A stretch of DNA of 64,000 bases. It comes from Pseudarthrobacter sp. NIBRBAC000502772. GTDB taxonomy: Bacteria; Actinomycetota; Actinomycetes; Actinomycetales; Micrococcaceae. The notes below the pieces were generated by a model. That model was not told where the DNA came from, did not search any database, and saw only the letters and a program-made list of their open reading frames with translations. A program made the translations under genes and the position numbers. This document shows positions 27,381-55,583 of this stretch, one piece after another. Location: contig NZ_CP041188.1 of assembly GCF_006517235.1 (NCBI RefSeq), forward strand, positions 3,906,001-3,970,000, written 5' to 3'. Every line of letters starts with the position of its first letter. Position 1 is the stretch's first letter.

Positions 27381-27447
27381 AGCAACGCGAGGTCACTTTG
27401 AGCCCAATCCGAGGTGCAGATTGGGCCGTAAGTGACCCCGCGTTGCT
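27381..27447. repeat. long hairpin element A, 7 bp after the rpoC stop
   Basis: The two halves pair in three blocks: AGCAACGCG/CGCGTTGCT, GGTCACTT/AAGTGACC and GCCCAATC/GATTGGGC, around a 9-nt loop. It probably terminates rpoBC. It belongs to a family with elements B, C and D in this window by its CACTT..GCCC core. Confidence 0.85.
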
Positions 27448-27454
27448 TTAGGCG

Positions 27455-30400
27455 TTAGCGGAAATCGTTGCCGAGATCGTAGTCATCCAGCGGGATGGCG
27501 TGGAACTCAGGAGCTCCGTCGCCGCCCAGGGAGTCGTACGAGAAGTCACTGAATGCGCTGGGGCCGGTGAACAGGTTGGCCTTCGCTTCCTCAGTGGGCT
27601 CCACGGTGACCTCGGTGTAGCGCGGGAGACCCGTGCCGGCCGGGATCAGCTTACCGATGATGACGTTCTCCTTGAGGCCGAGCAGCGGGTCGCTCTTGCC
27701 TTCCATGGCCGCCTGCGTCAGGACGCGGGTGGTCTCCTGGAAGGAAGCTGCCGACAGCCAGGACTCGGTGGCCAGGGACGCCTTCGTGATGCCCATGAGC
27801 TCAGGACGTCCGGAAGCCGGAGTCTTGCCCTCGGACACAACGCGGCGGTTGGCCTCCTCGAAGCGGCTGCGCTCGGCGAGCTCGCCGGGGAGCAGATCCG
27901 ATTCGCCGGACTCGATGACCGTGACGCGGCGCAGCATCTGGCGAACGATAACCTCGACGTGCTTGTCGTGGATACCGATGCCCTGGCTGCGGTACACGCC
28001 CTGGACCTCGTCCACCAGGAACTTCTGCGCGGCACGGGGACCCATGATGCGCAGCACCTGCTTGGGATCCACCGGACCGTTGATGAGCTTCTGGCCCACT
28101 GTGACGTGCTCGCCGTCCTCAATGAGGAGGCGTGAACGGCGCAGTACCGGGTAGGCGATCTCTTCAGAGCCGTCATCCGGAGTGATGACCAGGCGCATCT
28201 GGCGCTCGGACTCTTCGATGGCGATGCGGCCGGCTGCTTCAGCAATCGGTGCGACACCCTTCGGAGTACGGGCTTCGAAGAGCTCCTGGATACGGGGCAG
28301 ACCCTGGGTGATGTCGTCGCCACCGCTGGCGGAAACAGCACCACCGGTGTGGAACGTACGCATGGTCAGCTGGGTACCGGGCTCACCGATCGACTGTGCG
28401 GCGATGATGCCGACGGCCTCGCCGATGTCCACGGTCTTGCCGGTGGCCAGTGAACGGCCGTAGCACAGGGCGCAGGTGCCGACGCTGGACTCACAGGTGA
28501 GTACGGAGCGGACCTTGACCTCGGTGATGCCGGCTGCGAACAGCTCAGCGATAACGACGTCGCCGCAGTCGGTGCCGCCGGCCGCAAGGACATTGCCCTT
28601 GGAGTCCACAACATCAACAGCGAGCGTACGGGCGTAGGCGCTGTTCTCGACGTTCTCGTCCAGGACCAGCTCGCCGTTGGCGTCCGGCACGGCGATTGCC
28701 GTGACCAGGCCGCGCTCGGTGCCGCAGTCCTCTTCGCGAACGATGACGTCCTGCGACACGTCCACCAGACGACGGGTCAGGTAACCCGAGTTGGCGGTAC
28801 GCAGCGCGGTGTCAGCCAGACCCTTACGGGCACCGTGCGTAGCGATGAAGTATTCCAGCACCGACAGGCCCTCGCGGTAGGAGGACTTGATGGGACGCGG
28901 GATGATTTCACCCTTAGGGTTGGCCACCAGGCCACGGATACCCGCGATCTGACGGACCTGCATCCAGTTACCACGTGCACCCGAGGACACCATGCGGTTG
29001 ATGGTGTTCATCGGCGACAGGTTGTCACGCATCACCTGGGCGATCTCGTTGGTTGCCTTGTTCCAGATCTCGATCAGTTCCTGGCGACGCTCGTCGTCGT
29101 CGATCAGGCCCTTGTCGTACTGGCCCTGGATCTTGGCAGCCATGGTTTCGTAGCCGGCGAGGATCCGCGGCTTGTCCTTGGGTACCTCGATGTCCGAGAT
29201 GGCGACTGTAACGCCTGAGCGGGTGGCCCAGTAGAAACCGGCGTCCTTCAGATTGTCCAGCGTTGCCGCCGTGACCACCTTCGGGTAGCGCTCGGCGAGA
29301 TCGTTGACGATCGTGGACAGTTCGCCCTTGTCCGCAACGTTCTCAACCCACGGGTAATCCGCCGGCAGCGTCTGGTTGAAGATGACCTGTCCCAGGGAGG
29401 TCTGGACGATCACCGGCTGGCCGGCTTCCCAGCCTTCCGGAGCTTCCCAGCCCGCGTACGGAACGAAGCCTTCGAGACGGATCCTGACCTGCGAGTTCAG
29501 GTGCAGCTCGCGGAGGTCGTAGGCCATGATGGCTTCGGCAACCGAGGAGAAGACGCGTCCTTCGCCAGCTGAACCGACACGCTTGGTGGTCAGGTGGTAA
29601 AGACCGATGATCATATCCTGCGAAGGCAGGGTGACCGGACGGCCGTCGGACGGCTTCAGGATGTTGTTCGAGGACAGCATCAGGATGCGTGCCTCAGCCT
29701 GGGCCTCAGGGCTCAGCGGCAGGTGGACTGCCATCTGGTCGCCGTCGAAGTCAGCGTTGAAGGCGCCACAAACCAGCGGGTGGAGCTGGATTGCCTTACC
29801 TTCAACAAGCTGCGGTTCGAACGCCTGGATGCCGAGGCGGTGCAGGGTGGGTGCACGGTTGAGCAGCACCGGGTGTTCGGTGATGATCTCTTCCAGCACG
29901 TCCCAGACCTGCGGACGGTAACGCTCGACCATGCGCTTGGCCGACTTGATGTTCTGGGCGTGGTTGAGGTCAACCAGGCGCTTCATCACGAACGGCTTGA
30001 AGAGCTCCAGTGCCATCTGCTTGGGCAGGCCACACTGGTGCAGCTTCAGCTGCGGGCCGACGACGATGACCGAACGGCCGGAGTAGTCAACGCGCTTGCC
30101 GAGGAGGTTCTGGCGGAAACGGCCCTGCTTGCCCTTGAGCATGTCGCTCAGGGACTTCAGCGGACGGTTGCCCGGACCGGTGACCGGACGGCCGCGACGG
30201 CCGTTGTCGAAGAGGCTGTCAACAGCTTCCTGAAGCATGCGCTTCTCGTTGTTGACGATAATCTCCGGGGCACCGAGGTCAAGCAGGCGCTTGAGGCGGT
30301 TGTTGCGGTTGATCACACGACGGTAGAGGTCGTTGAGGTCGGAGGTCGCGAAGCGGCCACCGTCCAGCTGGACCATCGGGCGCAGTTCCGGCGGGATCAC

Positions 30401-31354
30401 CGGGACGGCGTCGAGAACCATGCCGAGCGGGCTGTTGTTGGTGGTCAGGAACGCGTTGACCACCTTCAGGCGCTTCAGGGCGCGGGTCTTGCGCTGGCCC
30501 TTGCCGTTGGCGATGATGTCGCGCAGCAGGTCAGACTCGGCCTGCATGTCGAAGTTCTCAAGACGCTTCTTGATGGCTTCGGCACCCATGGAGCCTTCGA
30601 AGTACATGCCGTAGCGGTCGCGCAGCTCGCGGTAGAGGCCTTCGTCGCCTTCGAGGTCTGCGACCTTCAGGTTCTTGAAACGGTCCCAGACCTGCTCAAG
30701 GCGCTCGATCTCGGCGTCGGCACGCTTACGCACGTTGGCCATCTGACGGTCCGCGGAGTCGCGGGCCTTCTTCTTGTCGGCAGCCTTGGCACCTTCACCT
30801 TCGAGGCGCGCGATCTCGTTTTCGAGGTCACGGGCGATCGTGGCGATGTCGGAGTCGCGGTTGTCGATCAGCTGCTTCTTCTCGATGTCGTGCTCAACCT
30901 GCAGGTTGGGCAGTTCCTCGTGGCGGCTATCGGCGTCGACGCTGGTGATCATGTAGGCAGCGAAGTAGATGACCTTTTCGAGGTCCTTCGGTGCCAGGTC
31001 AAGGAGGTAGCCCAGGCGGGACGGAACACCCTTGAAGTACCAGATGTGCGTGACCGGGGCGGCCAGCTCGATGTGGCCCATGCGCTCACGGCGGACCTTC
31101 GCACGGGTGACTTCAACGCCACAACGCTCGCAGATGATGCCCTTGAAGCGCACGCGCTTGTACTTACCGCAGTAGCATTCCCAGTCGCGGGAAGGGCCGA
31201 AGATCTTCTCGCAGAAGAGGCCGTCCTTCTCGGGCTTGAGCGTGCGGTAGTTGATGGTTTCCGGCTTCTTAACCTCGCCGTAAGACCAGCCACGGATGTC
31301 ATCCGCGGTGGCGAGGCCGATCTGCATGAGGCCGAAGGAGGATTCGCTGGACAT
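27455..31354 (-). CDS. rpoC: RNA polymerase beta' subunit
   Basis: Catalytic subunit, 1299 residues. The N-terminal zinc site is [20 protein letters not shown], the Mg-binding loop is [15 protein letters not shown], and the bridge/trigger-loop region has MRTFHTGG and [19 protein letters not shown]. There is no large lineage insert. It lies 161 bp after rpoB, with a hairpin and a dispersed repeat in between. Confidence 0.98.
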
Positions 31355-54491: not shown

Positions 54492-55517
54492 ATGAAAATT
54501 GGAATTCTTACCAGCGGTGGCGACTGCCCCGGACTGAACGCCGTCATCCGCGGGGCCGTCCTCAAGGGCATCGCCATTCACGGCCACCAATTCGTGGGTT
54601 TCCTGGACGGCTGGCGCGGCGTCGTTGAGGGCGACATCATCGATATTCCCCGCACTTTGGTCCGGGGTATTGCGAAACAGGGCGGAACCATCCTTGGCAC
54701 CTCCCGCACCAACCCCTTTGAAAACGGCGGCGGTCCGGAGGTCATCAAGGCCCACATGGACCGCCTCGGCATCGACGCCATCATCGCAATCGGCGGCGAA
54801 GGGACCCTCGCTGCGGCCAAGCGCCTCACCGACGTCGGGCTCAAGATTGTGGGTGTCCCCAAGACCGTGGACAACGACCTTGACGCCACGGATTACACCT
54901 TCGGTTTCGACACGGCCGTGCAGATCGCCACCGAGGCCATCGACCGGCTCCGGACAACGGGCGAGTCCCACCACCGCTGCATGATCGCCGAGGTCATGGG
55001 CCGCCATGTGGGCTGGATTGCCCTGCACGCCGGCATGGCCGCCGGTGCCCACGCCATCCTGATCCCCGAGCAGAAGGTCAGCCTTGATCAGATCACCGAA
55101 TGGGTCCAGGAAGCCCACGACCGTGGCCGCGCCCCGCTGATTGTTGTGGCCGAGGGCTTTGTTCCGGACCACATGGATTCTCCGCACTCCGAGCGCGGCC
55201 TGGACACGTTCGGCCGGCCACGCCTCGGCGGCATCGCGGACCAGCTCGCCCCCGAGATTGAAGCGCGCACCGGCATCGAAACCCGCGCCACCACCCTCGG
55301 GCACATCCAGCGCGGCGGCGTCCCGTCCGCATTCGACCGTGTGCTCGCCACCCGGCTGGGCATGGCCGCCATTGACTCCGTGGTGGAGGGCTACTGGGGC
55401 ACCATGGTGGCACTCAAGGGCACCGACATTGAGCACGTGAGCTTCGACAAGGCCCTGGGCCAGCTGAAGACCGTTCCGCAGAAGCGCTACGACGAGGCAG
55501 CGGTCCTCTTCGGGTAA
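54492..55517 (+). CDS. pfkA: 6-phosphofructokinase
   Basis: Phosphorylates fructose 6-phosphate in glycolysis; 341 residues. Start ATG 54492 (MKIGILTSGGDCPGLNAVIR). Catalytic Asp127 and Asp129 are in PKTVDNDLD. Gly104 in GGEGT is the residue that allows ATP, while Lys124 is the residue usual in PPi enzymes; together they fit the actinobacterial ATP-dependent subgroup. Ends 8 bp before hairpin D. Confidence 0.94.
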   Translation: MKIGILTSGGDCPGLNAVIRGAVLKGIAIHGHQFVGFLDGWRGVVEGDIIDIPRTLVRGIAKQGGTILGTSRTNPFENGGGPEVIKAHMDRLGIDAIIAIGGEGTLAAAKRLTDVGLKIVGVPKTVDNDLDATDYTFGFDTAVQIATEAIDRLRTTGESHHRCMIAEVMGRHVGWIALHAGMAAGAHAILIPEQKVSLDQITEWVQEAHDRGRAPLIVVAEGFVPDHMDSPHSERGLDTFGRPRLGGIADQLAPEIEARTGIETRATTLGHIQRGGVPSAFDRVLATRLGMAAIDSVVEGYWGTMVALKGTDIEHVSFDKALGQLKTVPQKRYDEAAVLFG

Positions 55518-55525
55518 GCCCGGTC

Positions 55526-55583
55526 AGCGCGAACGGACACTTGAGGCCCCTCCGCTGTGGGGCCTCAAGTGTCCGTTCGCGCT
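55526..55583. repeat. long hairpin element D after pfkA
   Basis: Perfect 25-bp inverted repeat (55526-55550 with 55559-55583) with an 8-nt loop. The arm contains GGACACTTGAGGCCCC. It begins 8 bp after the pfkA stop and ends 25 bp before the next gene. Likely terminator; same family as A-C. Confidence 0.92.

Follow-up and report, generated by a model that had tools for sequence, protein, structure and literature searches.

Four long hairpins beside stop codons

We analyzed a 64,000-nucleotide stretch of DNA (the window; G000:C1:3906001-3970000) from the 4.80-Mb, single-contig genome of Pseudarthrobacter sp. NIBRBAC000502772, here called the home genome, and studied a class of long palindromes that lie at the ends of its genes. 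An initial annotation had described four such hairpins, and a repeat search recovered all of them at the coordinates claimed there. None is assigned to a strand. The first is a 63-bp palindrome of what we call family A (27383..27445), located 9 bp from the stop codon of rpoC and upstream of rpsL, with genes identified by Pfam. The called open reading frame (ORF) of rpoC (27455..31354, minus strand) ends at 27455, contains Pfam RNA_pol_Rpb1 domains, and bears this A element at its 3' end; in the repeat search, the hairpin spans 27381-27447 with 29-nucleotide arms that are 86% complementary. The second A palindrome, also 63 bp (37749..37811; arms of 23 nucleotides, 83% complementary), abuts the stop codon of a plus-strand tRNA-editing-domain gene, with rplL convergent on the minus strand. 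A 63-bp palindrome of family B (45976..46038; 45977-46037 in the repeat search) has perfect arms (26/26) and separates a convergent pair, an aminotransferase gene (plus) and a LuxR-type response regulator gene (minus). The fourth, of family C (55526..55583), likewise has perfect arms (25/25) and follows the stop of a plus-strand phosphofructokinase gene by 8 bp, in tandem with a GNAT gene.

The nearest called stop codon is 7 to 9 bp away at rpoC, 0 bp at 37749, 18 bp to the left and 6 bp to the right of the B element, and 8 bp at the C element. Folding of the RNA strand with flanks gave z scores of -9.3, -4.7, -11.2, and -9.6 against dinucleotide shuffles, and the four hairpins are confirmed as real, beyond chance. 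Above the Rfam gathering score, the window contains only a tRNA and nothing over the elements; in the loci of 15 relatives at E ≤ 0.5, Rfam gave only subthreshold microRNA-type matches over elements.

Discrete families dispersed through the genome

Three of the elements used as BLAST queries, together with a covariance model (R1) derived from 12 copies, the four window hairpins among them, resolved three families in the home genome: A (CAACGCGGGGTCACTT..GCCC; window copies 27383-27445 and 37749-37811), B (GTTGCTCTATCACTT..; 45976-46038), and C (GCGCGAACGGACACTTGAGGCCCC; 55526-55583). A fourth family, D (ATCGATTGCTCCGTAACCGCC), turned up in a de novo hairpin scan. Many copies genome-wide had been expected, and R1 found at least 55 distinct places in the home genome at E ≤ 1, with 50 passing E ≤ 0.01; the count is a minimum, because only 150 of 1,182 first-look candidates were scored. 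None of the outcomes that the initial annotation named as counting against its claims was found: few copies in related genomes, copies away from gene ends, or no compensatory change.

The de novo scan covered 464 kb of the home genome and found 35 hairpins with a score of 15 or more, a density that is biased because 3 of the 20 stretches (L025, L026, and L028) had been picked for known copies. Fifteen of the 35 fell in one 204-kb part, for which three Markov-1 simulations each gave 0. The 55 elements are unevenly spread over the chromosome (9, 5, 7, 5, 2, 4, 14, and 9 in successive eighths of the contig); two ORFs close to the contig start are neither dnaA nor gyrB. At about 1.075 Mb (L013:15393-16878), three family D palindromes lie inside 1.5 kb.

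Family A combines constant outer arms, co-varying inner arms, and a center of fixed length. We collected copies from relatives with a two-arm pattern run over named genomes, which allowed lengths of 52 to 74 bp and itself set the outer 13 bp; home copies, found without the pattern, have almost equally constant outer arms. The pattern matched at least 117 stretches, and the taxa among the matches listed (80) were Arthrobacter, Pseudarthrobacter, Paenarthrobacter, and a Micrococcaceae bacterium. Among the matches listed in named relatives, 118 of 124 were exactly 63 bp long (three of 62, two of 64, and one of 71 bp). In the home genome, 21 of 22 groups of A arms are inverted pairs, all of 63 bp; in relatives the figure is 123 of 131, and 117 of those 123 measure 63 bp. 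Both shares are favored because regions had been fetched around paired hits. Positions 20 to 23 (GCCC) are nearly invariant, and the 13-nucleotide center is mostly near-random sequence.

The inner arms change together. Across 117 distinct 63-mers, pairs at positions 14 to 20 and 25 co-vary above shuffles with z of 4 to 9, and the two arms carry identical hexamers in 46 of the 117 versus 8.2 expected, although in both cases the shuffles ignore relatedness. Changes include flips from C-G to G-C and from T-A to A-T, and in 85 of the 117 the arms are mismatched at one to seven of 25 positions. The initial annotation held that outer arms differ yet remain complementary. Complementary change does occur, at positions 14 to 20 and 25; the outer arms themselves do not vary freely and mark discrete families, each nearly fixed in sequence, rather than compensatory drift.

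Half-units, arrays, and spacing

A typical copy consists of two half-units of about 25 bp that face each other at fixed spacing, giving 63 bp in both A and B. Family D has 11 pairs in fetched loci, all at one arm spacing (24 of 25 hits shown). Family C is looser: only 17 of 42 groups are simple pairs, and half-units are found alone or in direct arrays as well. Runs of three direct units were found at 1032878, 1473536, and 2056487; at 371571, 442802, and 904950, two direct units are accompanied by an inverted one. Most of the single and array cases examined lie just 3' of a called stop codon. Inverted C spacings are 46, 53 to 56, and 63 to 65 bp and direct ones 25 to 40 bp, with a 32-bp step in three arrays. 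These spacings rule out one helical-phase rule for all families. Since direct C arrays are unable to fold as the pairs do, the half-unit is an independent entity, whether functionally or as the thing that is copied, and the hairpin tells only part of the story. The description of these elements as a hairpin class therefore held in that the palindromes are real, while the A unit is stricter than it implied (63 bp, near-random center) and C half-units extend beyond it.

A further family, F, forms arrays of mixed direct and inverted GACGCTCT(C/A)TCACTT units at convergent gene ends (L327, L316, L338, L320, L348, L321, and L335). Adjacent direct units have a pitch of 32 bp in seven of eight pairs and of 64 bp in the eighth; the commonest outer length of inverted pairs is 103 (15 of 23), in a sample that includes eight G160 pairs hand-picked among the matches listed. 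With consensus letters entered by hand, half-units of B, C, D, and F fold alone at 0 to -1.1 kcal/mol, compared with -8.1 for A (z -1.7) and, for half-units of two palindromes of other genera described below, -5.1 for G144 (z -1.6) and -9.2 for G319 (z -5.3). The strict lengths suit either REPIN-like copying as a unit (REPINs are paired repetitive extragenic palindromic [REP] sequences) or a rigid DNA-bound dimer with footprints of about 32 bp.

Elements are concentrated at convergent gene ends

Gene context came from a home-made codon-usage gene caller, and some cases scored as inside a gene may be caller errors. We examined 67 places in the home genome and left 12 out of the context count: 10 for which a different or weak hairpin had been picked (half-units, arrays, a loopless C palindrome at 1207862, and a model hit at 2966141) and 2 without a hairpin. 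Of the remaining 55, 30 are convergent, 18 tandem, and 3 divergent, and 4 fall within a called gene. Among background gaps of at least 60 bp in 16 stretches plus the window (n = 193), 25 were convergent, 120 were tandem, and 48 were divergent. The 108 A copies in relatives comprised 56 convergent, 34 tandem, and 6 divergent sites, 10 inside a gene, and 2 at contig edges. The gene-end position reported initially is borne out by a convergent excess (Fisher P = 1e-9 in the home genome and 5e-13 in relatives) and a median distance from element to stop of 15 bp for A copies in relatives; the divergent deficit is also significant (P = 0.001 and 2e-5). The tests for relatives used n = 106, with the two contig-edge copies dropped, and the home genome as background.

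At tandem gene ends with a gap of at least 100 bp, an ordinary hairpin was present in 4 of 39 with an element versus 80 of 297 without (P = 0.029). The 14 clusters of neighboring genes that were listed look, judged by eye, like ordinary enzymes, transporters, regulators, and a ribosomal protein.

Distribution across relatives and other genera

Copies extend well into related genomes, as had been anticipated. The exact A arm occurs in 34 of 61 genus genomes, with 15 hits in the home genome and 65 in G155; a reversed A-arm control gave one hit in one genome. The F arm is found in 14 of the 61, led by G204 (64), G162 (47), and G160 (36). These F-richest genomes hold only 1, 7, and 2 A arms, respectively, and the A-rich G155 and G161 lack F. 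R1 matched 33 of 149 genomes in the family. In the order it matched 22 of 198, of which 13 lie outside the family, several with just one or two weak matches. In a plasmid collection, only NZ_AP024649.1 and NZ_AP024648.1 (Arthrobacter sp. StoSoilB13; 1.0 and 1.35 Mb) matched A, at 26 places; a phage collection gave no match to A.

The hits inspected in other Micrococcales genera are palindromes of similar build whose outer arms and fixed lengths (62 to 64 and 74 bp) are their own. The G144 palindrome AAACGCTGCACCACTTTT is 63 bp long in all eight pattern-matched copies, which show paired changes (GGGCC/GGCCC, CGGCC/GGCCG, and GGTCG/CGACC) within unrelated flanks. That of G059, CCGCGAGGGGTCACATATCGTTCA, is 74 bp in nine of nine pattern-matched copies, and that of G319, CGCGGAAACAACACTTTCCGCCC, is 63 to 64 bp. 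Training R1 on families A, B, and C biases any resemblance of the core in other genera; families D, E, and F came to light without this model. The G059 palindromes (L363-L371) exceed A's 63 bp by 11 bp, about one helical turn, and have a longer variable center. A 100-kb sample of G144 also holds further long palindromes that are nearly perfect but have unrelated arms (93, 70, 70, and 71 bp at L398, L399, L401, and L402), two of which begin with an (AG/CG)ATAGC motif. Samples of the same size yielded six hairpins of 40 to 52 bp in G182, which has no exact A or F arms; one of 42 and one of 61 bp in G178; and one of 59 bp plus a 66-bp palindrome of another family, E, in G173.

Exchange and turnover at orthologous sites

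The rpoC 3' end was matched in all 61 genus genomes, and loci were taken from the best 30. Eight of these carry A and 22 do not, a split that is neither independent nor an unbiased frequency, because the loci share descent and are the best 30 of 61 matches to an A-containing query. Another hairpin starting within 100 bp was found in none of the eight. Among the 22 ends without A, a script found an ordinary hairpin in 20; in the other two, L289 and L294, an imperfect GC stem can be made out by eye. In the eight genomes with A, the element is retained at rpoC, and its upper stem shows paired changes. At L298 and L300, an E-family palindrome comes after an ordinary hairpin. In L271-L274 and many relatives, a second hairpin lies about 100 bp downstream of the rpoC end; the window counterpart (27320-27352; ACGACGGCGG..CCGCCGTCGT) is 3' of rpoC and is kept in L271-L274 and in many A-free relatives. 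Stems like ACGACGGCGG recur among hairpins of the home genome.

We joined 16 home elements into one query, searched four relatives with it, and aligned 15 of the sites with as many as three of these relatives, only where matches were listed. The relatives include G177, a close one (97% over the rpoC region). Reading the 40 site-by-genome comparisons by eye, we found the same family in 10, one arm in 2, another palindrome in 8, and an ordinary hairpin or nothing recognizable in 20. The other palindrome was of family E once, and F arrays were seen at sites B3951976, A274011, and B4114458. At 37749-37811, A is kept in G177 and G204 and replaced by the E palindrome in G162. The window B site (45976..46038) has a full F array instead in G177, G204, and G162; just left of the B element, a plus-strand CACGCTCTCTCAC at 45960..45972, read by eye, is likely a remnant of one F-array unit. 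The C palindrome of the window (55526..55583; element C3961527) is whole in the home genome, reduced to one arm in G177, and absent from G204 and G162. Ordinary hairpins stand in place of A794558 in all three relatives, and A2337751 is missing from the closer G177 and G204 and present in G162. Turnover of this kind supports mobility or fast replacement, and the exchange with ordinary hairpins supports an end-of-transcript role.

Comparison with known systems

We searched open-licence full text and found there no earlier description of these repeats. REPINs are described as inverted REP doublets associated with RAYT (REP-associated tyrosine transposase) enzymes, with distance peaks at 71 and 110 bp (PMC3116915). 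The resemblance to that description lies in a short conserved unit that occurs as inverted pairs with a favored separation, a less conserved spacer, hairpin potential, extragenic location, and singlets and clusters besides pairs. The present elements are short, dispersed, and extragenic (4 of 55 home places are inside a called gene), and they form inverted doublets at fixed spacing in A, less strictly in C. They differ in that B, C, D, and F half-units do not fold alone, that the host group is Micrococcales, and that the Y1 transposase (PF01797) was absent from 19 of 20 genomes tested, the home genome included; the one positive genome had it in two pieces. Mobilization by a resident Y1/RAYT enzyme was dropped, the enzyme not being found in those 19. 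Read at their ends, A, B, and C copies carry no GTAG or CGTC tag; F arms end in GCGTC and E contains GTAG. We do not class the elements as REPINs, because neither the transposase nor, for A, B, and C, the end tag was found.

REPs tagged with GTAG or CGTC are located chiefly between genes that converge or run in tandem, and in two genomes the majority lie <20 bp from the 3' end (PMC3733652). Position and dimers are alike, and CGTC REPs also seem to lack a dedicated transposase; stems there are 5 to 13 or 8 to 9 bp plus the tag, compared with 23 to 31 bp here, and the outer ends of A, B, and C (CAAC, CGTTG, and GCGCGAA) are unlike those of tagged REPs. PMC3733652 names other phyla, and its main text does not contain the string "actinobacter." A passage of PMC12306157 (RepRanger) gives REP counts for Arthrobacter livingstonensis without sequences, so overlap with those predictions is possible.

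Miniature inverted-repeat transposable elements are similar as short dispersed inverted repeats without genes. They differ in target duplication, of which we saw none: none of 108 A copies is immediately flanked by repeats of ≥4 bp (expected number at 4 bp, 0.19). Repeats of 2 bp (3 of 108; 1.9 expected) and 3 bp (3 of 108; 2.0 expected) were found, with one 7-bp match at a 5-bp offset, and we noticed no parent transposon among neighboring genes. Bacterial interspersed mosaic elements are composite REP clusters; the F and C arrays resemble them in mixing direct and inverted units at a gene end and differ in unit sequences, which seem unrelated, and in the 32-bp direct pitch of F. Integron attC sites were considered because of the CAAC/GTTG ends and variable center and were dropped on reading, C and D lacking such ends.

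Interpretation

The elements are dispersed and fixed in length, they sit beside stop codons and mainly between convergent genes, and they are present, absent, or swapped at orthologous sites. Judged from sequence, they behave like a REPIN-type repeat at gene ends with a probable bidirectional end-of-transcript role. For the full reading, a REPIN-like superfamily of dispersed Micrococcales inverted repeats serving as bidirectional transcript-end hairpins, we see the chances as about even. Copies would spread, or be replaced as a unit, through a putative trans-acting factor and would be kept at gene ends, where the 23- to 31-bp RNA hairpin may end or protect transcripts arriving from either direction. 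The element hairpin could take over from ordinary terminator hairpins, and new families with new outer arms might arise in each lineage and displace older ones. The initial annotation had listed terminator, mRNA-end protector, and mobile palindrome as possible roles; these are not mutually exclusive, turnover speaking for mobility or fast replacement and exchange for a transcript-end role.

Several results weigh against the preferred reading. A T run of four or more within 15 nucleotides downstream was found in only 3 of 34 tandem and 4 of 56 convergent A copies, so that there is no T tract; flanks are A-rich before and T-rich after, about as symmetrically in tandem as in convergent copies. 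A terminator scan of 37000-56500 picked none of its three elements, though the scan itself performed at chance (12 versus 12.6 expected). Selection at the RNA level predicts G-U over A-C mismatches on the sense strand. Pooled tandem A copies showed no such excess (11 GU, 11 AC), nor did isolated mismatches (13 versus 13 in relatives and 9 versus 11 in the home genome); the rpoC locus alone had a G-U bias of 5 versus 0, counted from sense-oriented rows. Strand-specific RNA selection by this measure was set aside for lack of a pooled bias, which leaves RNA-level selection unproven. Template switching between arms in DNA is an established idea and could be the source of the arm co-variation, which therefore does not settle RNA versus DNA; the co-variation statistics also lack a control for kinship. 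Convergent ends show no clear shortage of ordinary hairpins where an element is present (21 of 67, versus 42 of 105 where none is), and several element-free orthologues have no clear hairpin. No recurrent partner gene was seen beside 163 elements, the largest neighbor cluster touching 12 of them. The direct C arrays, which cannot form the hairpin, the shared descent behind the rpoC split, the missing Y1 transposase, and the missing flanking repeats count on the same side.

That the elements are instead double-stranded DNA binding sites is an unlikely alternative. A half-unit of about 25 bp plus a spacer of about 6.5 bp would be the predicted monomer footprint, the 63-bp palindrome would hold a dimer, and the bound protein would block or insulate converging RNA polymerases, with the outer arms as a lineage-specific specificity region. 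The near-random center and fixed length fit this, as do the single spacing of D pairs, the 32-bp pitch of F (7 of 8), the C arrays with a 32-bp step, and the identity 63 = 2 × 31.5; symmetric flanks even in tandem copies, the missing wobble bias, and the single and direct half-units point the same way. However, C spacings depart from one helical phase, independent half-sites do not need arm co-variation, copying can also pass on a fixed spacing, and no candidate protein was found among the neighboring genes, the only ones examined. A more specific version, which we regard as more doubtful still, is a protein-based gene-end punctuation, in which a rapidly diversifying Micrococcales DNA-binding protein would occupy half-sites of about 32 bp in 63-bp dyads or 32-bp-pitch arrays and stop converging polymerases both ways, with outer arms as a lineage code and families swapping as specificity changes.

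Purely selfish REP-like repeats, persisting at gene ends as the least harmful sites with incidental effects on transcripts, would account for the patchy and unequal copy numbers across the genus, for half-copies and absences at orthologous sites, and for positions like those that PMC3733652 reports for REPs. We nevertheless give this reading only a small share of belief: ordinary hairpins at the rpoC end are replaced rather than added to, they are fewer at element-bearing tandem ends, A is retained at rpoC in eight genomes with paired upper-stem changes, and no transposase or target duplication was seen (19 of 20 genomes and 0 of 108 copies). Ordinary intrinsic (Rho-independent) terminators that are alike by chance are very improbable. 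The elements do share with such terminators a stable stem beside a stop codon and the positional exchange at rpoC, but they have stems of 23 to 31 bp with no T tract, and the near-constancy of their outer arms and the single length kept across many copies and species disfavor this explanation; most other hairpins of the home genome and of the rpoC end have short loops and differ from the elements in sequence and length.

T-tract terminators are scarce in actinobacteria, and the way in which transcripts are ended in this group is still debated. A numerous, recognizable, and swappable gene-end element offers natural experiments on transcript ends and on the insulation of convergent genes. Families that change between close relatives offer the same for REP-like spread without a REP transposase, and the elements provide an annotation handle for Arthrobacter-type genomes.

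Other palindromes in the window

An ordinary GC hairpin (37823..37858, no strand) neighbors the second A element on its rplL side. Another palindrome of about 60 bp, with 26-nucleotide arms that are 88% complementary, lies at 2942-3001 between convergent genes (2910 plus and 3014 minus). In the fetched DNA, its arm has only one match with a single mismatch outside the window, in L133.

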